Below, piece by piece: positions 234 through 36,302 of a stretch of 36,617 nucleotides of DNA; the first letter of the stretch is position 1; every line of letters begins with the position of its first letter. The position numbers and the translations under genes were made by a program. Source of the DNA: an uncultured bacterium (GTDB taxonomy: Bacteria > Verrucomicrobiota > Kiritimatiellia > RFP12 > UBA1067); the NCBI GenBank assembly GCA_903935195.1, contig CAIZQW010000096.1, positions 1 to 36,617 on the forward strand. The letters are read 5' to 3'. The notes beneath the pieces were generated by a model. That model was not told where the DNA came from and did no database searches. It was given only the letters and a program-made list of their open reading frames with translations.

Positions 234-2066
234 CTAATCCATTCTCCGAGGCCAGACGACAACGTCGTTCTTCCCGGACCGGATATGCTGAAAGGGCCCC
301 GGCTTCACCTGGTTCGGGTCCATGGCGCGTCCGAAATAGTCGCTACTGATATCGAGGGGGGTTCCGTCCTGGTGCTCCATGTGCATCTCCGCCAGCGGGA
401 TCTTGCCGATGAACCGGGATGTGATGAAGGCTGCCTTGGCCTGCGCAACCTGTGCGCTGAGGGTGAGGCTCAGCGTCCACGTCCCCTCCTCTTTCTTGCA
501 GAGGAAGTCGCTCTTGGTGGCATCCACAAGACTCTCCTTGCCCTCGCACGGGAAGGGCGCCGCATCATCCAGGTAGATGTTATGCGTGGCCGTGTAGCCG
601 TCTCCGTCCGGACGCTTGGGCCCGCCGATGAAGATGTTGTTGTACCACTTCTTGAAACGCAGGGTCGTGCCGCCGCGCCCGGCCACTTCGGTGGTGTGCG
701 GCTTGTAATAGGGGACAAAATTCCTCTCGCCGCTGACGGTCTGCTCGAGAGCCGACCTGACAAAGAGGTTATGCGCGTAGATGTTGCCATCCGACCAATC
801 CCGTATTCCGGACGCGATCACGACATTATTATCAAAGAGGGTGGGACCGAAGGAGACTTCGGTGAAGAGTGCATAGTTCCGGTCGGCGATGAAATTGCCG
901 GTCACCCGCGCATTCTGCGAGCCCCAATCGAGCCAGATGCCGATGCCTGACCCGTCAGGCCCGTAAAGCTTGTTGTTGCGGATGATCACATCGATCGGAA
1001 AGAGGATCTTGATATCCGCCTGGTTCGCCCCGCGCCACTCTTTACGATAGACCGTTTCCGTAATCTCATTGCCCTCCAGGATGCTCCCGACCGCGCCGTA
1101 GCAGCCATAGATGCCGCACTGCCCGCAGCGCGAGATCCGGTTGTTCCGGATGAGGTGGAACCCGAAGGTGCCGTAGGGCGGGATATTATCGCCGCCCTTT
1201 GCAAGGTCAAAGGAAAAGATCACCTCATCCGAGACGCCCATGGAGATGCCGTTGTTACGTGAATAGCTGATCCGGCAGTTCTGGACCGTCCAGCGATAAC
1301 CGTACTTCATGCCGATCGCCCCTTCCTCCAGGCTGTAGATGTCACTCCACTGGCTGGCGGTGTGGCGCACATCAAAGCCGTCGAGGACAATGTATTTCAG
1401 GCCGCTTTTCTCCGGAAAGAAGGCCGTTGCCCGGGCATTCACCTCTGTCAGTCCGGCATTGGGGTCCGCCCCGGCAAAGTTCGCCCAGAGGATTGTCGTG
1501 CCTGCACCGTTTTCACAATACCAGCTCTGTTTTGTCTGCCCAACATCCTGGAGGCTGAACTTCTCAAAATAGGCCTCGTTGTTGAAATACAGATCCCCCA
1601 GATGGTACGGCAGGTATTTGTCCTCCGCTGGATTTCTCCCTTGCACGAGGACGGTCTTGATCGACTTACCTCCCAGCCAGGCGCCCGAGACATGGACGGT
1701 AAACGGGTTGAAGCCCTTGAAAAAAGAGTCCGGCAACTCCACCTTCCAGACCCCGCCCCCCTGCGCCACCCAGTTTGTCACAGGTTCCGAACCCCGGATC
1801 GAAACCTCCTCGCCCGGAGCGGCCTTGTAGGTGATAGGCGCCCCTTCCGTGCCGCCGCGCGGCGGTTTGATTGCTTCGCGATAAATGCCAGCCTTGACCA
1901 GGATGGTATCCCCCGGCTGTGCCTTGTCGGCGGCGGACTGGATCGTCTTCAACGGTTTGGCGGCGGAGCCATCGTTCGCATTGTCGCCAGCGACAGAAAC
2001 ATGATACTCGGCAGCAAAAGAAGTCGATACTGCCATCAGGATAAGAATCGGTATTAATGTTTTCAT
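234..2066 (-). CDS. Secreted right-handed parallel beta-helix (pectate-lyase-like/DUF1565) protein
   Basis: Signal peptide MKTLIPILILMAVSTSFAA; 'VSVAGDNANDGSAAKPLKTIQSAADKAQPGDTILVKAGIYRE' is typical of DUF1565/beta-helix N-termini; repeated RNN/GNxI turns. GGAG upstream of the ATG; start overlaps the end of the upstream gene. Confidence 0.85.
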   Translation of the reverse strand: MKTLIPILILMAVSTSFAAEYHVSVAGDNANDGSAAKPLKTIQSAADKAQPGDTILVKAGIYREAIKPPRGGTEGAPITYKAAPGEEVSIRGSEPVTNWVAQGGGVWKVELPDSFFKGFNPFTVHVSGAWLGGKSIKTVLVQGRNPAEDKYLPYHLGDLYFNNEAYFEKFSLQDVGQTKQSWYCENGAGTTILWANFAGADPNAGLTEVNARATAFFPEKSGLKYIVLDGFDVRHTASQWSDIYSLEEGAIGMKYGYRWTVQNCRISYSRNNGISMGVSDEVIFSFDLAKGGDNIPPYGTFGFHLIRNNRISRCGQCGIYGCYGAVGSILEGNEITETVYRKEWRGANQADIKILFPIDVIIRNNKLYGPDGSGIGIWLDWGSQNARVTGNFIADRNYALFTEVSFGPTLFDNNVVIASGIRDWSDGNIYAHNLFVRSALEQTVSGERNFVPYYKPHTTEVAGRGGTTLRFKKWYNNIFIGGPKRPDGDGYTATHNIYLDDAAPFPCEGKESLVDATKSDFLCKKEEGTWTLSLTLSAQVAQAKAAFITSRFIGKIPLAEMHMEHQDGTPLDISSDYFGRAMDPNQVKPGPFQHIRSGKNDVVVWPRRMD

Positions 2067-2069
2067 CTT

Positions 2070-4925
2070 CTACTCCATGACGATTACTGTTTGATTCATC
2101 TCTGGTGCGGTAGCAGGCCAGATAAGTTTTTCTCCTGCGGTAATGTAATACTCGAAATCATCCTGTGCTGCCGGAAGCTTCGCTTCGTACACGGATTGCG
2201 CAATGTGCGTGGCCACTATTGTCTGCCAGTCACCACGACCGAGCGGGCGGACGTGGACGATGACGGAACTTACCGGCTGCTTTGCAAGGGCGATGATTTT
2301 CAGTTTCAGCGATTCGCCCTTGTTCACCACACTGCGGACACACGGCACGATCATGCGCGGTGTTCCTTGGTAGTCCTTCGGGAACGGTTGGCCCGCCGCC
2401 TTGGCAACCGCCGGGCCCCACCCGGAATGGACCTCCATGTTCGCCACCATCCCGAATGCGCCGGGCGTGTTTGCCGTGGCCAGCAAACAGGTGTAGGCTT
2501 CCGCCCAGTGCTTGAACACATCGCCGGGTTGCTGCACGCCCATCGCGCACCGCGTCATCGCCAGCGCCCGATGGTATTTGAAGGTGTTCAGCCAGTAATC
2601 GAACCGGTCGAGATTGCCGGCCCCTTTCACTTGCGGGCGCAATTTCTCGAACCCATCCACAAACGCAAACTGCGGCGCGATCTTGTTCCACGGCGTTTTG
2701 TCGGGAGTAACATCTCCGGTCGGGCAGCCGTCCTGGACAGCTTTCGGCAGCTTGCCGGCACCGCCGTCAATCGCGGCGAAGATCGCGCCCGCTTCAGTCA
2801 GCCCGAAGTTGGCCAGCGCCCAGTCTGTGTAGAAATCGTCCACGGGCAACGAGCGCGGCTTGCCGGCGTCGGACTGCCAATCGTTGTATGCCGCGCCGCC
2901 GAGGTTCATCTTGTTGGTGAACCCGGCACCTTCAATGGCCACGCCGGAAATGCAGGGCAGCGACTTGCGCGCGACCAACTCGATGGTCAACGCGCCGTTG
3001 GTGACCGCGATGTCGTCGAAGGAGAAATCGAGCGCGGCGAACTTTCCGACCTTCGCAAAGATATCGAGGTTGGTCAGGACGGTGTTCCCCTGCACGCGCA
3101 CATCGCAGATGCGCTCGCCGGCTGCATCGAAATGCGGTTCGCAGAACTTGAGCGTGACCTTGTACCTGCCGGCGGGAGCTTGCAGCCGAATCGTGCCGAG
3201 ATCATACCGGCAGCTGCGATACAGCGGCGCGTCCGTCGTGCCGGCAATGGCGGCGTTCGAAAAGCTGCAGACCTTGCCCATGATTGCCCACGTGGCGCCT
3301 GTGCTCCATCTTTGGTCCCATGCGGCCTGCGCGAGAGCCGAGGCGTTCGGGCCAAGGTCTTCCGTGCGCCAGTGCAGCCCCATTAAACCAGTGCATCCGT
3401 AGTCGCGGGCGTCCACGGCATCGCGGCGCATCCGGCCGGCGTGCAGTTGAATGGTGGCCAGGCCGTAGTTCCAATCGCTTTCGAGCCACGGAATCGCCCA
3501 CAGCTCACGCCCCGCAATACGCGCGAACGCTGGGTCCACTTCGCTGAGGCCGGTGTTCCGGCTGATCGCGCTCATGGGGATGTTCTTGGGCATGTCATTG
3601 TCGAACGCGGCACGGTCGTGTTGCGGGCCGAGCACCCAGCCGGCGGTGGCGATCCGGAATGGCGCGTTGACTTTTTTCGCCGCCTCAATCGCGAGCTGGA
3701 TGTCGGCAACGGTATTGGAATACTCCGCCGGTTTATTCCCGCCCCAGGTCCAGCCTTCAGGAGTCCATATCCAGTAATAATCCAGGGGATGACTTGCCAT
3801 TATCCGGCGGAACGTACCTTCATATACGGCACGAACGTCCTTTGTTCTTTCGGAAAGGACTTTCGGCATTATCAGCGGCGCTTCAGTGCCAAGACACGTT
3901 TTCACGCCAAGATGCCGGGCAAATGTGAACGCATCCTTGAACTGCGCGGCCATGCGGTTGAACACCTCGTTGCAGTCCTCGGGCGTGACCGGCAGCGGCG
4001 TGTGACCGCGCAACACATCCGGAGCCCATGCCTTGTCGTCGAACAATTGCGAGCCGCCAAAATGAAAGTCGCTGGTCTTGGTGGGAACGTATTTTTCTGC
4101 TGGCGGCGCATGGACAGTGTTGTAGTAGCGAGAGACATAACTGCGTTGCACATGCCCCATCGCGTCGAAATCGCCGGGCAAGCCGTGCCATACCGTCGGC
4201 TCGGCCATCGGATGGCCCTCCGGGTAGCAGTGAACACCGAGGAAGTTCATCCGCATCTTTGCGAGTTGCGTAAAGACCGCCTTGTAATCATCAGCGCTCC
4301 ACGCATCCATGCCCTGCGGATGCCACCCCCACGTATTCACGCCGCGCAAGTTGAACAGCGGCTTGCCCGATTCCTCTTTCACCACCGGCAACTCCTTCAA
4401 CCGCTCATCCGGCACGACATCGCCGTGGAGATAGAACCGCACGCCGAGCAACTCTGCATACCGGTATGCGCCATACAGGACACCGACATCACTTCCGCCT
4501 GATATCTCGACCGCTCCGCCGGCAGTTCTGATCCGGAACTGCTGGGCTTGAAGTGTCGGATCAATTTTTAGCAGGAAATCTGATCCGTCACGCTTCCCAG
4601 AAATGACAGGCAGTTTCCCTGTCCGCAGATAGATATATCGGCGCAGCTCCGCGGCGGCAAGCTTCACAAGCGATTGTTTGCTTTCCCCAAACTGGTCAGG
4701 CGTTCCCTCCGCAACACACACACACATTGCCTCATCATCGCGACCATCCTTGACCAGCAGCGGTTTCGCCTCCGTGCCGGGATTCCCATTGCCGGCCTGC
4801 GGCGAGCGGTTGTTGACGACAATGGTCCTGGCCAGCGCCGGCGTGCTGAGCCCATACAGCAACCCCAGGAACGCGCCCGTCAGGCACATTTTCAGTGAAA
4901 GCACATCTCTTCTATTTTTACTCAT
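2070..4925 (-). CDS. GH67 N-terminal-like / DUF4838-type putative glycoside hydrolase with an embedded malectin-like domain
   Basis: 'LVKLAAAELRRYIYLRTGKLPVISG' and 'GVLYGAYRYAELLGVRFY' are alpha-glucuronidase N-terminal (GH67N)-like; 'GTIRLQAPAGRYKVTLKFCEPHFDAAGERICDVRVQG...' is malectin-like (about 2925-3230). ORF opens at 4955, but AAAAGGAGGATGGG-ATG supports a start at 4925. Confidence 0.75.
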   Translation of the reverse strand: MSKNRRDVLSLKMCLTGAFLGLLYGLSTPALARTIVVNNRSPQAGNGNPGTEAKPLLVKDGRDDEAMCVCVAEGTPDQFGESKQSLVKLAAAELRRYIYLRTGKLPVISGKRDGSDFLLKIDPTLQAQQFRIRTAGGAVEISGGSDVGVLYGAYRYAELLGVRFYLHGDVVPDERLKELPVVKEESGKPLFNLRGVNTWGWHPQGMDAWSADDYKAVFTQLAKMRMNFLGVHCYPEGHPMAEPTVWHGLPGDFDAMGHVQRSYVSRYYNTVHAPPAEKYVPTKTSDFHFGGSQLFDDKAWAPDVLRGHTPLPVTPEDCNEVFNRMAAQFKDAFTFARHLGVKTCLGTEAPLIMPKVLSERTKDVRAVYEGTFRRIMASHPLDYYWIWTPEGWTWGGNKPAEYSNTVADIQLAIEAAKKVNAPFRIATAGWVLGPQHDRAAFDNDMPKNIPMSAISRNTGLSEVDPAFARIAGRELWAIPWLESDWNYGLATIQLHAGRMRRDAVDARDYGCTGLMGLHWRTEDLGPNASALAQAAWDQRWSTGATWAIMGKVCSFSNAAIAGTTDAPLYRSCRYDLGTIRLQAPAGRYKVTLKFCEPHFDAAGERICDVRVQGNTVLTNLDIFAKVGKFAALDFSFDDIAVTNGALTIELVARKSLPCISGVAIEGAGFTNKMNLGGAAYNDWQSDAGKPRSLPVDDFYTDWALANFGLTEAGAIFAAIDGGAGKLPKAVQDGCPTGDVTPDKTPWNKIAPQFAFVDGFEKLRPQVKGAGNLDRFDYWLNTFKYHRALAMTRCAMGVQQPGDVFKHWAEAYTCLLATANTPGAFGMVANMEVHSGWGPAVAKAAGQPFPKDYQGTPRMIVPCVRSVVNKGESLKLKIIALAKQPVSSVIVHVRPLGRGDWQTIVATHIAQSVYEAKLPAAQDDFEYYITAGEKLIWPATAPEMNQTVIVME

Positions 4926-4944: not shown

Positions 4945-6105
4945 CTATTTTTCACGCCGATCCCCTCTTCCCCTCTTCAACAACCCAAACACGCGCCGGG
5001 CGACATCGGTGCGGTCGCGGCTTACGGCCTCGTACCTGCCCTTGTCTAAGGCGATGGCCGGGGCGATATACGAGGCAATGATCAACCCTTCCGGCCCGCC
5101 CATGTCCCGCTCCAACTCACGGTAGTAAGCCTCCATGCGCTGCTCCGAGGGCGCGAAGTCACAGGCCATGTAGACGATACCCTTATCCTTCAAGGCGTTC
5201 CGCATCGCAGCAGCCACCGAGATATTATCCAAATTGAGGTTATGAATGGCCCTCACGCCCTCGGTGTGAACATAGTTGCTGATGTTCTGTGTCGATTGCC
5301 CGCAGTAATGGATGCAACCGCCTCCAAACGCTTTAAGCACGCATTCATTATAGGGTTTTACGAACTCCTTGTACAGCTCACTGCTCATGATCACGGAGTC
5401 ATCATCGGAGAGCCAGACACCGCCGTAGCCGTCCGGAACTTTGATGCTGAGCGGGTAGCAGCACCCCTGCAGGGGCTGGCCGGCGCGCTCCTTCTGGAAG
5501 CGTACCCACTGGATCAGGGCTTCCGTCACCTTTTCCATAAGCGTGTGGATGCGCGTGGGATCATCGTGCATCCAGAAGCAGAATTTGTCGTACCCGGCAA
5601 TCTGGAAGGCTGTTGTCAGAGGTCCCTGGCAGTCGGTGATGCCCACCGGCAGATCCGCATGCGCTTTAAAATAATCCAGATAGTCGGTCACGCGCTTCAT
5701 GGCCCCTGCTTCACCGGGCACGGGAAGCACAAGGTCGTCAATCTCCTCCAGAGCGGTCATCGTTGAAAGGTCGACGGCCGGATCAGCCTTGGGATTGCAG
5801 ACGAGCTTGACGCCGAACGCGGAGGCCAGCACGCCCGTCCCGTACCAGGGGTGAAGAAAGGGAATATAGTCATCGTCTGGAAGCTGGTGAAAATGACGCT
5901 CGATCTTCTCGGTCTGATACTTGAAGGCTGAGGCCGGATTCGTGTAGTGATCGTCGGGGATCTCTTCCGGCAGATCGCCGAACGTCCAATAGTTACAGTC
6001 CACGATCACGACACCAGGCTCCGTATTCGTGAAGTCGAAGACGCGCTTCAGCCGAGCCTCCGCGCGTGCATTTCGTTCCAGCCATTTATCCTGTATGCGT
6101 TCCAT
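4945..6105 (-). CDS. URO-D-family (methyltransferase-like) protein, copy 1
   Basis: URO-D fold signatures with an HxCG motif ('GGCIHYCGQSTQNISNYVH'). Start taken at MERIQDKW (6105) because of the strong SD (GGGAGGAGAGTGAGT-ATG); the track ORF extends to 6156. Confidence 0.75.
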   Translation of the reverse strand: MERIQDKWLERNARAEARLKRVFDFTNTEPGVVIVDCNYWTFGDLPEEIPDDHYTNPASAFKYQTEKIERHFHQLPDDDYIPFLHPWYGTGVLASAFGVKLVCNPKADPAVDLSTMTALEEIDDLVLPVPGEAGAMKRVTDYLDYFKAHADLPVGITDCQGPLTTAFQIAGYDKFCFWMHDDPTRIHTLMEKVTEALIQWVRFQKERAGQPLQGCCYPLSIKVPDGYGGVWLSDDDSVIMSSELYKEFVKPYNECVLKAFGGGCIHYCGQSTQNISNYVHTEGVRAIHNLNLDNISVAAAMRNALKDKGIVYMACDFAPSEQRMEAYYRELERDMGGPEGLIIASYIAPAIALDKGRYEAVSRDRTDVARRVFGLLKRGRGDRREK

Positions 6106-6107
6106 AC

Positions 6108-7448
6108 TCACTCTCCTCCCGCCCGAAGCGCCTCCTCCTTCGCGATGCGACACCACCTCGTCACATGCTCAGGCCGCTTACTGATGGTATGATTATCCTT
6201 CATGATGATTTCGACAACGCACCCCCGCGTGATCTCAAGCGCGCGGCGAAGCCCCGCCCGGAGTTGCTCCTCGTTGATCGCCTCGCACGCCAGCTCCACA
6301 GGATTCGGCTTCAGGGAAAGAATATACTTGTTCTCGAGACAGGCCGCCATTTTTCCAAGGTCAGCCCACGGCGAGCAGGAGACACGGCGCAGGTTGTGAT
6401 GCCGCTTGACGGTCTGCCACCTCGCGTCAAGGGCTTCGCAGCAGCCATAGCAGTTGAGGCCAAAGCGCGCCAAGATAGGCTGCTCATACGGAAACACATA
6501 CGCTGCATACATGTCAGGGGATACACAGACCGTCTCCTGACTCTCAGCAAACCCCCACAGATCACGGCAACGCACGTGCCCGTCGAAACCGCTGCCTGGC
6601 AATTCATCTGTATAGCCGAAGCCCCCCGAGCCCACATACGTGCCGTTGTTGTTGAGACTCAGCAGGCCTTCGCGTTCCAGCTCATCCAACTTCTGCAGAT
6701 GAGCGTTTGAAACGAAGCTCAGAAGAGCCTTCAGTTCGTCCGGCTGAGCGGCAAAATCCATCAGGAGATTGGTCAGCCCGCGCAACATGACCGCTGGCAG
6801 TGTCAGGCCAAGTGACCACCACCAGGTGCCTTGAAGCTGGACATCCAGCGTCGTTCCGAAGGCTTCCCGTGCGAGGGCCAGACACCCCCTCGTCGTCTCC
6901 CAGTCAACCTGCACGCGCGGCGCGCGAAGCTTCGGAAAGTCCCGGTCATAGTCTTGAAGGGGACCCTCCCAGGACTGCGCCCCGTCAGCAAGCTCTGAAT
7001 GATGAAAGACCGTCTTCAACCCCCAGTCGTCAGGCAGAACCGTGTAGGGCACAACAAAGGATGCTTCCACCGGCCTGTCATCCCCCATCTCCTCGCCCCA
7101 GAAAATCTCCTTCCGGAGATCCATCTCCCAGCGTCTGGCAAGCCTGCCCGTGCATTCCATCAGGTCATCCGTGATGATTTCATTCCAACCGTTCTCAGGG
7201 TCGCAGAAGACGAGCGGACGGTTTCCGGCAAGCGCATTGTGCCCCTTCCAGAGACGTCTCTTCTCCTCCATCTCCGCCGTGCCGGCCAAAGACGCCACCC
7301 GCTCCCCCAGCCGTTGAAGGACACTTTTGTCCGCGGCCGACAGGATGACATCCTGCGGGGTGAGCCCCGTGGCGATCCTGCCAAGCGCTGTCTGATCAAG
7401 GCCCGTGGAGACCCCGTTGCCGTACAAATCTATGTTGCTGTTACGCAT
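6108..7448 (-). CDS. URO-D-family (methyltransferase-like) protein, copy 2
   Basis: 'GLNCYGCCEALDARWQTVKRHHNLRRVSCSPWADLGKMAACLENKYILSLKPNP' resembles the C-terminal part of URO-D family proteins; directly upstream of copy 1 with a 2-nt gap. Confidence 0.7.
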   Translation of the reverse strand: MRNSNIDLYGNGVSTGLDQTALGRIATGLTPQDVILSAADKSVLQRLGERVASLAGTAEMEEKRRLWKGHNALAGNRPLVFCDPENGWNEIITDDLMECTGRLARRWEMDLRKEIFWGEEMGDDRPVEASFVVPYTVLPDDWGLKTVFHHSELADGAQSWEGPLQDYDRDFPKLRAPRVQVDWETTRGCLALAREAFGTTLDVQLQGTWWWSLGLTLPAVMLRGLTNLLMDFAAQPDELKALLSFVSNAHLQKLDELEREGLLSLNNNGTYVGSGGFGYTDELPGSGFDGHVRCRDLWGFAESQETVCVSPDMYAAYVFPYEQPILARFGLNCYGCCEALDARWQTVKRHHNLRRVSCSPWADLGKMAACLENKYILSLKPNPVELACEAINEEQLRAGLRRALEITRGCVVEIIMKDNHTISKRPEHVTRWCRIAKEEALRAGGE

Positions 7449-7499
7449 AAAGAAACCTATTCGTTGTAGCGCTGTGCAGTTTGGCGATCAGAGGCTTGA

Positions 7500-7512
7500 C
7501 GCTATGATAGCG
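7500..7512. promoter_or_regulatory. Candidate operator: CGCTAT-G-ATAGCG inverted repeat in the divergent intergenic region
   Basis: Exact 6+1+6 inverted repeat between the URO-D gene start (7448) and the XylR-like regulator start (7669). Confidence 0.4.
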
Positions 7513-7668
7513 AATATGCGACAATTCAAAAGTCAGGTTCAAACAGGATCCATGTAAGCGAAATCATGCTTGTTCATAGCTCTCTTGCCTTTCATGCATT
7601 CTAAATTAACAAAACGCGCCTTTTGGGGCTAGAGCCTATTTTGCGGAAGTGTATAGTATTTTTGCGTC

Positions 7669-8856
7669 ATGCCTAACTTACCCAGAGTTGTCCTCCTGCT
7701 GGAAACCTCCATCGAATATGGACGTGCCATCTTACGCGGTGTGGCCCGCTATGAGCGCTTGCACGGCCCCTGGTCGGTCTATGTGGAGCCCGGCCATTTC
7801 CAGCATATCCTTCCCACGATAAACACCTCCGTGCCTGTCGGCATGATCGCACGCATGACATCGCCCACAGAGGTCCGTGTCCTGAAACGGGTCGGCTGTC
7901 CCGTGATCGTCCTGGAGCCCTCGTCTGATGTCCCGGCGCTCTCTGCAGCGCGACACGGCTTCCACAGCATTGTCACCGACTCCCCCGCGATCGCCCGGCT
8001 GGCGGCCCAGCACCTCCTGGGGCTGGGCCTCACGCGTTTCGGCTTCTGCGGCTATGCGGAGTGTCCCTGGTCTGAAACGCGACGGACAGCGTTCATCGCA
8101 CATCTCAAAGCCCAAGGGTTTTCCTGTTCGGTCTTCACGGAACCTGTGGATGTCGGAGGGCAAGGCGTCCTTTCCCAAAAACGGTTGAAGGCCTGGCTGC
8201 TCTCGCTGCCCAAGCCTGCCGGCGTCATGGCTTGTAACGATGCCTGCGGACGCCAGGTCGTCGCAGCGTGTTCCGAGGCCGGAATCGCCGTGCCGGATCA
8301 GATTGCCGTGATCGGCGTTGACAATGATGAGCTCCTGTGCGAACTGGCGGATCCGCCGCTCTCCAGTGTCGTACTGGACTGTGAGCAGGCGGGATACGCT
8401 GCAGCCGAGTTGCTGGATGGGCTCATGAAGGGAAACATAGCGAACGCCCCACAGATGATCTCTGTTCGCGCCCTGACAGTCATGGAGCGGCGCTCGACAC
8501 AGCCCATTCTGGTGCAGGATGCGCTTGTCGCCGCTGCTCTGCGTTTCATCCGGGACACGGTGACCCGCCTTATCAGCGTCCGGGACGTGACAGACCATGT
8601 CGGTGTTTCGAGGCGGACGCTGGAACGTCGCTTCGATCATGTTTTCGGTCACGGGATCTATGACGAAATCACCGACTGCCGCCTCGTCCGGGCCAAGCGT
8701 CTGTTGCTCGAAACAGACCTCCCCTCCTACCGCGTAGCCGAAGCCGCCGGCTTCAGCAACATTCAGCCCATGCTCCGCCTCTTTCACCGTCAGGAAGGGT
8801 GTTCTCCGCTGGCCTACCGGGCGAAGGCCAGGAAGTCAAAGCCTGACTTCGGCTAA
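7669..8856 (+). CDS. XylR-type transcriptional regulator: LacI/PBP1-like sensor domain plus C-terminal AraC HTH
   Basis: 'VVLLLETSIEYGRAILRGVARYERLHGPWSVYVEPG' N-terminus and 'VRDVTDHVGVSRRTLERRFDHVFGHGIYDEI...VAEAAGFSNIQPMLRLFHRQEGCSPLAYR' AraC HTH. Confidence 0.9.
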   Translation: MPNLPRVVLLLETSIEYGRAILRGVARYERLHGPWSVYVEPGHFQHILPTINTSVPVGMIARMTSPTEVRVLKRVGCPVIVLEPSSDVPALSAARHGFHSIVTDSPAIARLAAQHLLGLGLTRFGFCGYAECPWSETRRTAFIAHLKAQGFSCSVFTEPVDVGGQGVLSQKRLKAWLLSLPKPAGVMACNDACGRQVVAACSEAGIAVPDQIAVIGVDNDELLCELADPPLSSVVLDCEQAGYAAAELLDGLMKGNIANAPQMISVRALTVMERRSTQPILVQDALVAAALRFIRDTVTRLISVRDVTDHVGVSRRTLERRFDHVFGHGIYDEITDCRLVRAKRLLLETDLPSYRVAEAAGFSNIQPMLRLFHRQEGCSPLAYRAKARKSKPDFG

Positions 8857-8908: not shown

Positions 8909-8986
8909 GGGTTGACATTGTTGACGGTGTGTTGCGACCGTGTTGAATGTGCAAGAACCCCATCAATGCGGTCAACAGGGTCAATA
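8909..8986. repeat. Imperfect inverted repeat (GTTGACATTGTTGACGG ... CGGTCAACAGGGTCAA)
   Basis: 13 of 16 positions complementary by hand alignment; surrounded by further GTTGAC/GTTGAA-like words. Confidence 0.5.
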
Positions 8987-9042
8987 CGATCACAACCCAT
9001 TCCCGCTCGACAGGCGAGACGCTTATCGCTACACTGTTGCTC

Positions 9043-9951
9043 ATGAATTTTTCGTATATTGGTGAGATTGCGGCACTGGCAACCGCCTTTCTCTGGATGC
9101 TGAGCGCCTTATGTTGGACTGCCGCAGGCGAGAGGATCGGATCCCTTGCCGTGAACGTAATACGCCTCCTGGTGGCATTGCCCATGGCAATGGCGTATCT
9201 CTGGGTGACAGAGGGGGTCATCGCTCCATTCTCCGCATCGGCAAATACGTGGTTCTGCCTCTCAATCTCTGGGATGCTTGGCTTTTTCGTCTGTGATCTC
9301 TTGCTTTTCAGATCGTTTCTCTTGATCGGTCCGCGGCTCGGGATGCTGATCCTATCTCTGGCGCCACCGATGACGGCGTTGATCGGAAGGTTTTTTCTGG
9401 AGGAACATCTGACCCTACTCAACTGGCTGGGGATGTCGCTGACCATCGCCGGGGTTGCCTGGGTCGTGCTGGAGTCGTCTACGCAGGAAGGGGCTGGCCG
9501 CCGCTATGTGTTTACCCTGCGCGGCGGGCTTTTGGCACTCTTCGCCGCAGCTTCGCAGGCGTGTGCCATGGTGGTGGCGAAGATGGGGTTGAAAGAGAAT
9601 ATCTCTGCCATTGCCGCCACTGAAATACGGCTGATTGCGGGGCTCGGATGCTTTCTGCTCTTGCTACTCGTCCTGCGGCGTTATCCAATGCTGTTCAAGG
9701 CGGCGCAGGATCGTCGCGCAGTGAGCATCATTGTATTTGGCGCGCTTGTCGGCCCCGTGGTGGGCGTGGCGATGCTGATGGTGGCGATCAGCCATATTCA
9801 AACAGGGTTAGCCCAAACCTTCCTAGCCCTCTCGCCCGTACTAATCATCCCGTTCATGCGTCTGCTCTACAAGGAGCGCATCACGGTTCACGCAGTGGCT
9901 GGCGCCCTGCTAGCCTTTGCCGGCATCGCCCTGCTGTTTGTAAAGAAATAG
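9043..9951 (+). CDS. EamA/DMT-family transporter
   Basis: About 10 hydrophobic segments, with EamA-like repeats ('GPRLGMLILSLAPPMTALIGRFFLEEHLTLLNWLGMSLTIAGVAWVV' and 'LALSPVLIIPFMRLLYKERITVHAVAGALLAFAGIALLF'). Start set at MNFSYIGEIAAL; the ORF track starts at 8947. Confidence 0.85.
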   Translation: MNFSYIGEIAALATAFLWMLSALCWTAAGERIGSLAVNVIRLLVALPMAMAYLWVTEGVIAPFSASANTWFCLSISGMLGFFVCDLLLFRSFLLIGPRLGMLILSLAPPMTALIGRFFLEEHLTLLNWLGMSLTIAGVAWVVLESSTQEGAGRRYVFTLRGGLLALFAAASQACAMVVAKMGLKENISAIAATEIRLIAGLGCFLLLLLVLRRYPMLFKAAQDRRAVSIIVFGALVGPVVGVAMLMVAISHIQTGLAQTFLALSPVLIIPFMRLLYKERITVHAVAGALLAFAGIALLFVKK

Positions 9952-10563: not shown

Positions 10564-10584
10564 GCCTTTTGATTGACAAAAGGC
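10564..10584 (+). other. 5'-leader hairpin GCCTTTTG-ATTGA-CAAAAGGC
   Basis: Perfect 8-bp stem with 5-nt loop, followed by TTTT; begins at the predicted transcription start. Confidence 0.6.
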
Positions 10585-10625
10585 TTTTAAAGCTAGCAGA
10601 TGACCCACGAGGAGGTACTACGCGT

Positions 10626-11594
10626 ATGGATAAGAAAGGCACCTGGTTGACCTACAGACCCGACATCAAGATTTTAGACTGCACGATCCGCGATGGCGGA
10701 TTGATGACGGATTGCCATTTTGACGATTCCTTTGTGAAAGGGGTTTATCAGGCGTGCGTGGACTCTGGCGTGGACTACATGGAAATCGGCTACAAGAGTT
10801 CGAAAAAGATCTTTGCGCGTCCTCAATATGGGGACTGGAAGTTCTGTGATGAAGAGATGATCCGGCGTATTGTCGGCGACAATCCCTCTTCGCTGAAAAT
10901 AGCCGTGATGGCCGATGCTGACCGTTGTGACTACCACACCGACTTCAGTGCGAAAAAGGAGAGCGTCATTGACCTCGTCCGTGTCGCGACCTATATCCAC
11001 CAAATCCCGCTGGCGCTGGACATGATTAAGGCTTTTAATGATATGGGATATGAGACCACCGTCAACCTCATGGCGGTATCCGTGGTCAATGATGGCGAGT
11101 TGAACGAGGCGCTTGAGATTCTTTGCAAGAGCGAAGTACAGACCATTTATTTGGTGGACAGCTACGGTTCGCTCTATGGAGAGGAAGTGCAGGCACTCAC
11201 CCGTAAATATCGTGGCTTTGCAGAGGCGGGCGGCAAGCAAGTGGGTATCCACACCCACAACAACCAGCAACTCGCGTATGCCAATACCATTGAAGCATTA
11301 ATTCTTGGCGCCAGTTTCTTGGACTGCACCATCGGTGGTTTGGGCCGCGGCGCGGGCAACTGCCCCACGGAGCTCCTGTTGGGCTTTCTCAAAAATCCGC
11401 GCTACCATGTGCGTCCCATTATAAAATGCTTACAGGAACAGATCGTGCCGCTTCGCCAGAAGGTGCAATGGGGCTATGATATTCCCTACATGTTAACGGG
11501 CCAGCTCAACCAACATCCGCGTACCGCCATGGAATTCCTCGACGGCGAAACCCCGACAGATTACCTCACATTCTACGATCAGATCATTGAATAG
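10626..11594 (+). CDS. Aldolase catalytic domain protein (HMG-CoA lyase / 4-hydroxy-2-oxovalerate aldolase-like)
   Basis: 'ILDCTIRDGG' opening, 'IYLVDSYGSLYGEEV', 'GIHTHNNQQLAYANTIEALILGASFLDCTIGGLGRGAGNCPTE' HMGL-like motifs. GAGGAGG upstream of ATG at 10626; the track ORF starts at 10569. Confidence 0.85.
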   Translation: MDKKGTWLTYRPDIKILDCTIRDGGLMTDCHFDDSFVKGVYQACVDSGVDYMEIGYKSSKKIFARPQYGDWKFCDEEMIRRIVGDNPSSLKIAVMADADRCDYHTDFSAKKESVIDLVRVATYIHQIPLALDMIKAFNDMGYETTVNLMAVSVVNDGELNEALEILCKSEVQTIYLVDSYGSLYGEEVQALTRKYRGFAEAGGKQVGIHTHNNQQLAYANTIEALILGASFLDCTIGGLGRGAGNCPTELLLGFLKNPRYHVRPIIKCLQEQIVPLRQKVQWGYDIPYMLTGQLNQHPRTAMEFLDGETPTDYLTFYDQIIE

Positions 11595-34446: not shown

Positions 34447-36302
34447 CTAGAAAGATTCTTGAGCCGTACGCGCAATGATCTCTTCCTGCAACTCTTTGCT
34501 GAGATCACAGAAGTAGTCACTATAACCGGCCACACGGACGATCAGATCACGATGCTGTTCCGGATTGCGTTGCGCCTCACGAAGGGTCTCTGCATCCACC
34601 ACGTTGAACTGCATGTGATGGCCGTCCAGCCGGAAATAGGATCTGATAAGCTGGGCAAGCTTATCAATGCCCTCTTGTCCGCGCAAGGTGCCAGGCAGGA
34701 ACTTCATGTTCAACAACGTGCCACCTGTCCGGAGCTGATCCATCTTCGCGGCAGAGGCAATCACTGCGGTTGGGCCGTGACGGTCCGCGCCCTGCACAGG
34801 CGAGATACCCTCCGAGACAGGCTGCTTAGCTTTGCGTCCGTCAGGTGTCGCGCACAGCACAAGCCCGAAGTAGATATGGCAGGTGGTGGGGAGCATATCC
34901 ACATGATATTCCCCTCCACGCAGGTTCGGGCGTCCGTCAATCGCGGCATAGAGCGAGTTGAAGACGCGCTTCATCAGATCATCCGCGGCATCGTCATCAT
35001 TGCCATAGCGCGGCGTCTTATTCCAGAGCTTTAAGCGCAACGCCTCTTGACCGGCAAAATCAGCCTTCAACGCATCCATGAGCTGAGGCAGCGAGATTGT
35101 ATCCTGTTCGAAGACATGTGTCTTTATGGCCGAAAGGCTGTCCGTAATGGTTCCGATGCCCACGCACTGGATGTAACTGGTGTTATAGCGCGCGCCACCG
35201 GCATTGTAATCCTTGCCCTTCTTGATACAATCGTCAATCAGAACAGAGAGGAAGACCGCGGGCATCTCGGTCGCATACATCTTTTCGATGAAGAGGTTGC
35301 CCGCCATTTTGATGTCCACGACAACCTTCAACTGCTTCTCAAAGGCAGTATAGACATCTTCAAACGACTGGAAGGACTTGGGATCACCTGTCTGCGGCCC
35401 GACCTGCTTACCCGTCCGAGCATCCACGCCATTATTCAACGCCAACTCAAAAATTTTGGGTGTGTTGAGATACCCGGTCAAAACGTAAGCCTCCTTGCCA
35501 AAGGCGCCAGTCTCGACACAGCCGCTGTTGCCGCCTTCGCGCGCGTCTTGAATGTTCTTGCCGACACGGACCATCTGTTCGACTACGCCGTCTGCATTGA
35601 AGACAGAGGGATAGCCATACCCCTGACGAATCACTTCGCAGGCGGCTTTTAAAAACTTGTCGGGGTTCTTGCGGCTGAGCTGGATATTCGACTGCGGCTG
35701 GAGCAGATGAATAGAGTCCACCACCTCCAACATCAGATAGGAGAGCTCATTGACGCCATCCGTGCCATCCGGCATAATACCGCCGATATTGATGTTGGTA
35801 AAATCGTTATAGGTGCCGCTCTCCTGCGCGGTCACGCCAACCTTCGGCGGAGCTGGCTGATTATTGAATTTGATCCAGAAGCACTCCAGCAATTCACGTG
35901 CGAGTTCGCGCGTCAAGATGCCGTCATCGCAATCCTTTTTAAAGAAGGGATAGAGATAGCGGTCAAGATGTCCGGGATTCATTGCATCCCAGCCATTCAG
36001 CTCGGTAATGGTTCCCAGGTGCATGAACCAATACATCTGCAGCGCTTCCCGGAAGGTGCGCGGGGCATTCTCTGGAACCCAGCGACAGGTCGCAGCGATC
36101 TGGTCGAGCTCAGCCTTACGTTGCGGATTCTTCTCGGCGAGGGCCATCTGTTCCGCCAGTTCAGCATGCCGTCTTGCAAAGGTCAATACCGCATCGCAGG
36201 CGATCGACATCGCCTTCAGCTCTTCACGCTTCGGCACTGCCTCTGGGTCGGTGATGAAATCCAAGGCTGCGATGGTCTCCGCAATATCCTGCTTAAAGCC
36301 AT
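34447..36302 (-). CDS. Glycyl radical enzyme (PFL-like; possibly 4-hydroxyproline dehydratase/PFL2-type), 5'-truncated
   Basis: C-terminal glycyl radical motif 'LIVRVAGYSDYFCDLSKELQEEIIARTAQESF' and active-site 'EGGNSGCVETGAFGKEAYVLTGYLN'. Reading frame continues beyond the track ATG at 36264 to a junction at about 36300, where an in-frame TGA appears; N-terminal part missing. Confidence 0.85.

Follow-up and report, generated by a model that had tools for sequence, protein, structure and literature searches.

The question raised by this locus is what two adjacent, dissimilar genes of the URO-D family are doing in an operon for glycan degradation. The locus lies in a 36,617-nucleotide (nt) stretch of DNA (hereafter the window; contig CAIZQW010000096.1, positions 1 to 36,617) from an uncultured bacterium of the class Kiritimatiellia, phylum Verrucomicrobiota. 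The two genes, here termed copy 2 and copy 1, open a four-gene operon on the minus strand, followed by genes for a secreted protein (a 961-amino-acid (aa) open reading frame (ORF); the 961-aa protein) and for a protein of glycoside hydrolase (GH) family 120, with intergenic gaps along the operon of 2, 19 and 3 nt. An earlier note, made from the sequence alone, had described two differing URO-D-family genes 2 nt apart, and this stands: both ORFs are real, and whilst the mechanically called ORF of copy 1 begins at GTG 6156, the start conserved in an alignment with its orthologues is ATG 6105, so giving the 2-nt gap. The same note proposed that methyl groups released from O-methylated sugars are passed to C1 metabolism. 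That proposal is supported by the context of relatives in other genomes, by co-occurrence with a corrinoid reactivase, and by the presence in the genome of a corrinoid protein and of carbon monoxide dehydrogenase/acetyl-CoA synthase (CODH/ACS); a role for copy 2 as a corrinoid-linked methyltransferase acting on an O-methylated sugar is, in our view, rather probable.

No relevant Pfam family is matched by copy 2, including at permissive thresholds. Its family is recruited by an iterative profile search seeded with a URO-D neighbour protein, and the related loci number 69. Sequence searches of the PDB with copy 1 alone, copy 2 alone and the copy-2 profile gave nothing useful, and plasmid searches gave weak matches only. 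An AlphaFold model of copy 2, built from 41 relatives, has a predicted local distance difference test score (pLDDT) of 93.0 and a predicted template modelling score (pTM) of 0.92, and matches HemE/UroD and MtaA structures (2eja, 4ay8) with a Foldseek probability of 1.00, such that a UroD-superfamily fold (a UroD/MetE-type TIM barrel) can be predicted with confidence. Copy 2 is a member of an unnamed, widespread clade that has no Pfam entry. The reported CYGCCE motif is present, its GCCE occupying the position of the HxCG motif, and HxC is absent; G335-C336-C337-E338 and D418 are invariant across 44 copy-2 relatives, H420 is invariant in a stricter set of 41 sequences, and a large set of invariant residues is kept over several phyla. 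The best reading of copy 2 is as a predicted substrate-specific (MTI-type) methyltransferase of a corrinoid O-demethylase.

The nearest relative of copy 2 with a full set of partners is found in Sporomusa silvacetica (locus L090), where the gene layout is that of a corrinoid O-demethylase operon. The run comprises iolC-iolB-iolD-iolE-iolG, the copy-2 homologue, a corrinoid protein, a pterin-binding methyltetrahydrofolate:corrinoid methyltransferase (methyltransferase II) and a transporter; the methyltransferase II, a strong match, lies beside the copy-2 homologue, which is the sole candidate there for the missing MTI. In a locus from the Spirochaetales (L099), iolD, iolC and iolB likewise lie beside a copy-2 homologue, and the two homologues group together in the tree (support 100/99). 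A corrinoid protein is encoded within two genes of the copy-2 homologue in L090, L056 and L054, and Rbs-type sugar permeases are present in 20 of the 69 loci.

A RACo-type corrinoid reactivase is encoded in 46 of 50 genomes with copy-2 homologues, from many phyla. Within a sample of 195 genomes from the phylum, using a cut of ~80 bits (chosen after seeing the output) for a strong match to the copy-2 family, RACo was found in 31 of the 32 genomes with the family compared with 40 of the 163 others (Fisher p 3e-15); counted by genus, the figures are 27/28 with and 28/80 without (p 3e-9), with these p-values being too small because of shared ancestry and of a general link to anaerobic C1 metabolism. 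The co-occurrence is an association, not a mechanism.

In the bacterium's own genome (3.63 Mb, 92% complete), 25 URO-D matches were counted. Three divergent paralogues of copy 2 are in L-fucose, alpha-rhamnosidase and GH4 loci, i.e. beside an L-fucose isomerase, a major facilitator superfamily transporter and a GH29 protein (contig C119), beside GH78, GH127 and a tandem URO-D protein (C355), and with GH4 and MttB (C274). The MttB-superfamily methyltransferase in the last of these (L103:1327-2724), near the GH4 gene and the copy-2 paralogue, brings another superfamily of methyltransferases into a sugar locus. Further URO-D paralogues adjoin FGGY kinases (C267, C151, C92), RhaT (C92, C75), a sugar transporter (C131), ROK and GH38 proteins (C99), and GH95 (C85).

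Parts for corrinoid and C1 chemistry are present elsewhere in the genome. One corrinoid protein, of the B12-binding_2 (MtaC) type, was found (C196); a genome devoid of corrinoid proteins would have told against the proposal. At that locus (L100:2391-3941 and 4133-4825) an MtaA-like URO-D/thioredoxin-like fusion is flanked by a CobW-like GTPase and the MtaC-type protein. The ATP-dependent activase looked for as part of a three-component O-demethylase is represented by two RACo proteins (C354, C219), which may also serve CODH/ACS; the larger and better matching is AcsV-like. A pterin-binding protein of the methyltransferase II type (C298), beside a formate/nitrite transporter, is a weak match (102 of 259 bits to PRK07535), and CODH/ACS genes are on C282. 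Together, C282 (L277), C354 (L133) and C298 (L275) carry genes for CODH, acetyl-CoA synthase, CdhD-type subunits, an AcsV-like activase and the formate/nitrite transporter, which suggest a Wood-Ljungdahl pathway in this genome.

Copy 1 is more readily placed in the URO-D family by sequence (Pfam URO-D, 1.3e-15), and its model, of lower confidence (pLDDT 68), has the same UroD fold. Its best NCBIfam matches are to the MtaA/CmuA family and are weak (37.7 bits against a cut-off of 235.4 for TIGR01463). The HYCG motif reported for it is present and aligns with the HxCG of MtaA; in copy 1, SYIAP occupies the place of the PGCGIAP of MtaA, whose Cys is the third (C-terminal) zinc-ligand position of the MtaA family. 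Close orthologues of copy 1 were found solely adjoining copy 2, in a second Kiritimatiellia genome (L031) and in a Spirochaetes genome (L087), so the arrangement is not one of chance; in the 195 genomes of the phylum sample, copy 1 itself aside, only distant URO-D proteins (≤35% identical) were found. In L031 copy 2 precedes copy 1, as in the window, and a GH120-type protein with a malectin insertion comes next. In L087 the order is reversed, copy 1 and copy 2 being followed by a sugar-type binding protein, an ATP-binding cassette (ABC) ATPase, another URO-D protein and a permease, with a ROK protein upstream; the swap argues for a functional link between the two copies. Other loci, e.g. L053, L051, L098, L050, L056 and L035, pair copy 2 with a different URO-D protein. 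A second methyltransferase is the probable role of copy 1, which might work as the partner of copy 2 or have a different position or sugar as its target.

The earlier description of two extracellular glycan-active proteins downstream holds for the GH120 protein, which has a signal peptide, and in part for the 961-aa protein, which has a signal-like N-terminus and is a candidate glycosidase. The former matches XylC (PDB 3VST; 266 bits, E 4.7e-78), retains the WLDW and EVS.GP catalytic-region motifs and, by sequence, is a GH120 beta-xylosidase homologue. The latter has a Malectin domain (2.3e-18); four of five members of its family match Glyco_hydro_67N (best 7.6e-6), and the family matches a PDB alpha-glucuronidase weakly (E 0.03). 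The window protein falls short of GH67: it scores 15.4 of the 24.3 bits of the Pfam cut-off for Glyco_hydro_67N, has no barrel match and carries the malectin insertion. It is a candidate glycosidase with no family assigned. In two genomes of the same class (G012, G118), 961-aa homologues are followed after 34 and 16 nt, respectively, by a URO-D/thioredoxin-type methyltransferase, a separate link of this secreted family with URO-D enzymes; the proteins directly behind these homologues are related to the C196 fusion. In L031 (2673-4931) a malectin domain is inserted into the GH120-type protein itself; in the window, GH120 and malectin are found on two different proteins. 4-O-Methylglucuronate, being the common O-methyl sugar of xylan, is the leading guess for the substrate, possible and somewhat doubtful; O-methyl xylose is an alternative.

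If the preferred reading is correct, the operon would degrade an O-methylated part of xylan. The GH120 beta-xylosidase and the 961-aa protein would free sugars outside the cytoplasm. Once inside, the O-methylated sugar would be set by copy 2, as the MTI, beside a carrier protein's Co(I) corrinoid; the carrier would take the methyl group, so releasing the free sugar for catabolism. The carrier would be that encoded on C196, common to several sugar-specific URO-D-fold enzymes and, in an incomplete genome, perhaps to all of them, with the RACo-type activases (C354, C219) keeping its cobalt reduced. The methyl group would pass to tetrahydrofolate and from there to CODH/ACS (C282) or to oxidation. 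In this scheme copy 1 would probably be another methyltransferase, working with copy 2 or on a different position or sugar.

That the two proteins are tetrapyrrole enzymes (HemE itself or similar to it), or paralogues without activity, is very improbable. The top Foldseek matches are HemE structures; however, neither copy matches NCBIfam hemE at 1e-3, and in a tree of 41 proteins (many deep branches of which are long and unsure in order, as is the branch of Escherichia coli HemE long) all ten copy-2-type proteins group in a single clade, and copy 1 groups with its two orthologues in a second (support 100/100 for each); E. coli HemE and the MtaA-like proteins fall outside both. HemE membership was rejected for both copies on these grounds, as was a recent tandem duplication, since the copies are in different clades. 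Even the three best Pfam URO-D scorers of the genome reach only ~80-83 of 303 bits for hemE and are fitted better by MtaA/CmuA-type models, and the residues invariant in copy 2 over several phyla argue against decay. The earlier view that the pair is of the MtaA/CmuA rather than the HemE type was thus correct as to HemE; membership of MtaA/CmuA was itself rejected, copy 1 falling far below the cut-off and lacking the third zinc Cys, and copy 2 having neither a match nor HxC. An MtaA-type zinc site is consequently unsupported in either protein. Zinc is reported to be absent from CdmB, an MTI of the UroD superfamily (PMC13222342), so the missing site is no argument against methyl transfer.

The UroD superfamily also includes decarboxylases and zinc methyltransferases, and URO-D-fold enzymes in sugar loci might be corrinoid-independent, catalysing decarboxylation, lyase chemistry or zinc-dependent methyl transfer directly to a thiol. 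The retention of HxC in copy 1 and the ratio of one corrinoid protein to ~29 superfamily members in the genome, with none in the window, are in keeping with such chemistry, which we consider unlikely given the strong co-occurrence with the reactivase, both within one phylum and across phyla, and the direct linkage of copy-2 homologues to corrinoid proteins in the three loci given above. It is quite unlikely, too, that these are corrinoid methyltransferases acting on something other than a sugar of this glycan, e.g. methanol from methyl esters or a methylated amine or thiol, the glycan context being incidental. Some relatives do lie in unrelated neighbourhoods, and an MttB-type gene is near one paralogue; against this stand the sugar-specific contexts that recur both within this genome and in others (inositol, L-fucose, rhamnosidase, GH120), the GH120-type gene kept by the pair in L031, and the Rbs-type permeases.

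Several observations also weigh against copy 2 being a corrinoid-linked sugar demethylase. In agreement with the earlier note, the window genes scanned include no corrinoid protein or reactivase, and Ram is missing from them as well; the corrinoid protein, activase and tetrahydrofolate methyltransferase would all have to act in trans. A corrinoid protein is present in just 4 of the 69 related loci, and the sole one in this genome adjoins a different gene, the MtaA-like URO-D/thioredoxin. The AcsV-like RACo and the C298 methyltransferase may serve the Wood-Ljungdahl (acetyl-CoA) pathway itself. A phylum-wide tally for distant copy-2 relatives gave mixed neighbours, not clearly dominated by sugar genes, so that the sugar link comes from nearer relatives and own-genome paralogues. 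A setting among fucose, rhamnose or inositol genes is, moreover, no proof that the substrate is methylated.

Amongst characterized systems, copy 2 resembles the UroD-superfamily MTIs of O-demethylases and methyl-halide metabolism (OdmB, VdmB, MtvB, MtoB, CdmB) in its UroD fold and in that a corrinoid protein, methyltransferase II and ATP-dependent activase are expected. It differs in having a sugar/cyclitol context, rather than one of methoxyaromatics or chloromethane, and partners in trans, and the copy-2 profile found no CdmB match in the PDB sequence search. With MtaA/CmuA, which are methylcobamide:thiol methyltransferases, copy 1 shares its best NCBIfam matches and the aligned HxCG. The type 1 mlp gene clusters of Kountz and Balskus likewise have several MtaA-like proteins and corrinoid chemistry in organisms other than methanogens (PMC10418091); these concern methyl-sulfur/selenium compounds, whereas the window cluster lacks a corrinoid protein and Ram and has a glycan context. 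The 961-aa family recalls the GH67/GH115 alpha-(4-O-methyl)-glucuronidases in its weak GH67 N-terminal match and GH120 neighbour, with the differences from GH67 set out above.

O-Methyl sugars are common: hardwood xylan contains 4-O-methylglucuronate, many glycans carry O-methyl fucose and rhamnose, and plants have O-methyl inositols. The only described route for sugar O-demethylation that we found is oxidative: a cytochrome P450 monooxygenase demethylates 6-O-methyl-D-galactose from porphyran, releasing formaldehyde (PMC10033563). That route, too, is a methoxy-sugar demethylation within polysaccharide utilization, whereas the one proposed for this operon would rely on a corrinoid and need no oxygen. 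No direct report that pinitol, O-methyl inositols or methylated sugars are demethylated by a corrinoid route was found in the open-access literature, subscription papers being outside the search and absence therefore unproven. A broader proposal, held tentatively and rated just short of probable, is that copy 2 and its relatives make up a widespread but unannotated family of corrinoid O-demethylases that act on methylated sugars and cyclitols without oxygen, and that the Kiritimatiellia version is a hub: a single corrinoid protein would serve many sugar-specific methyltransferases dispersed over separate glycan loci, and the methyl groups would go to CODH/ACS. If so, this would go some way to explaining why a polysaccharide degrader has so large a URO-D complement, glycan breakdown would be connected to the acetyl-CoA pathway without oxygen, and a conserved clade with no Pfam entry would gain a testable function; the Sporomusa locus puts that function within reach of testing in a cultured acetogen.

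Table 1. Features of the operon and its divergent regulator (positions in the window)
Feature	Position	Strand	Description and basis
Copy 2 (operon gene 1)	6108..7448	-	446 aa; ORF; no Pfam match; AlphaFold2 model and Foldseek; own clade
Copy 1 (operon gene 2)	4945..6105	-	386 aa from conserved ATG; Pfam URO-D 57.8 bits
Secreted malectin-containing protein (operon gene 3)	2070..4925	-	Signal-like N-terminus; GH67N-like N-terminal region; inserted Malectin
GH120 beta-xylosidase homologue (operon gene 4)	234..2066	-	Signal peptide; PDB 3VST XylC match; Pfam Glyco_hydro_120_ins
XylR-architecture regulator	7669..8856	+	Pfam Peripla_BP_3 128 bits, HTH_18 67 bits
Divergent intergenic region	7449..7668	.	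Presumed control region; sequence and repeat scan

For operon gene 3 the mechanical ORF (961 aa) begins at 4955, the likely start being the ATG at 4925 and the stop at 2070. The promoter had been described earlier as XylR-regulated; a regulator of XylR architecture, in which a periplasmic-binding-like sensor (Peripla_BP_3) is joined to an AraC helix-turn-helix, is indeed transcribed divergently from the operon, and it may be that this XylR/AraC-type protein controls it. The sequence and repeat scan of the intergenic region gave no convincing operator or operator-like repeat. On the plus strand, 3' of the regulator, are genes for an EamA-type transporter (8947-9951) and an HMGL-type aldolase homologue (10569-11594), which may be part of this operon's sugar pathway. 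At 34447-36264 on the minus strand is an ORF for a glycyl-radical enzyme resembling pyruvate formate-lyase (PFL), which is without the first 187 profile positions; its frame closes before the contig end, and it may be truncated or a pseudogene.
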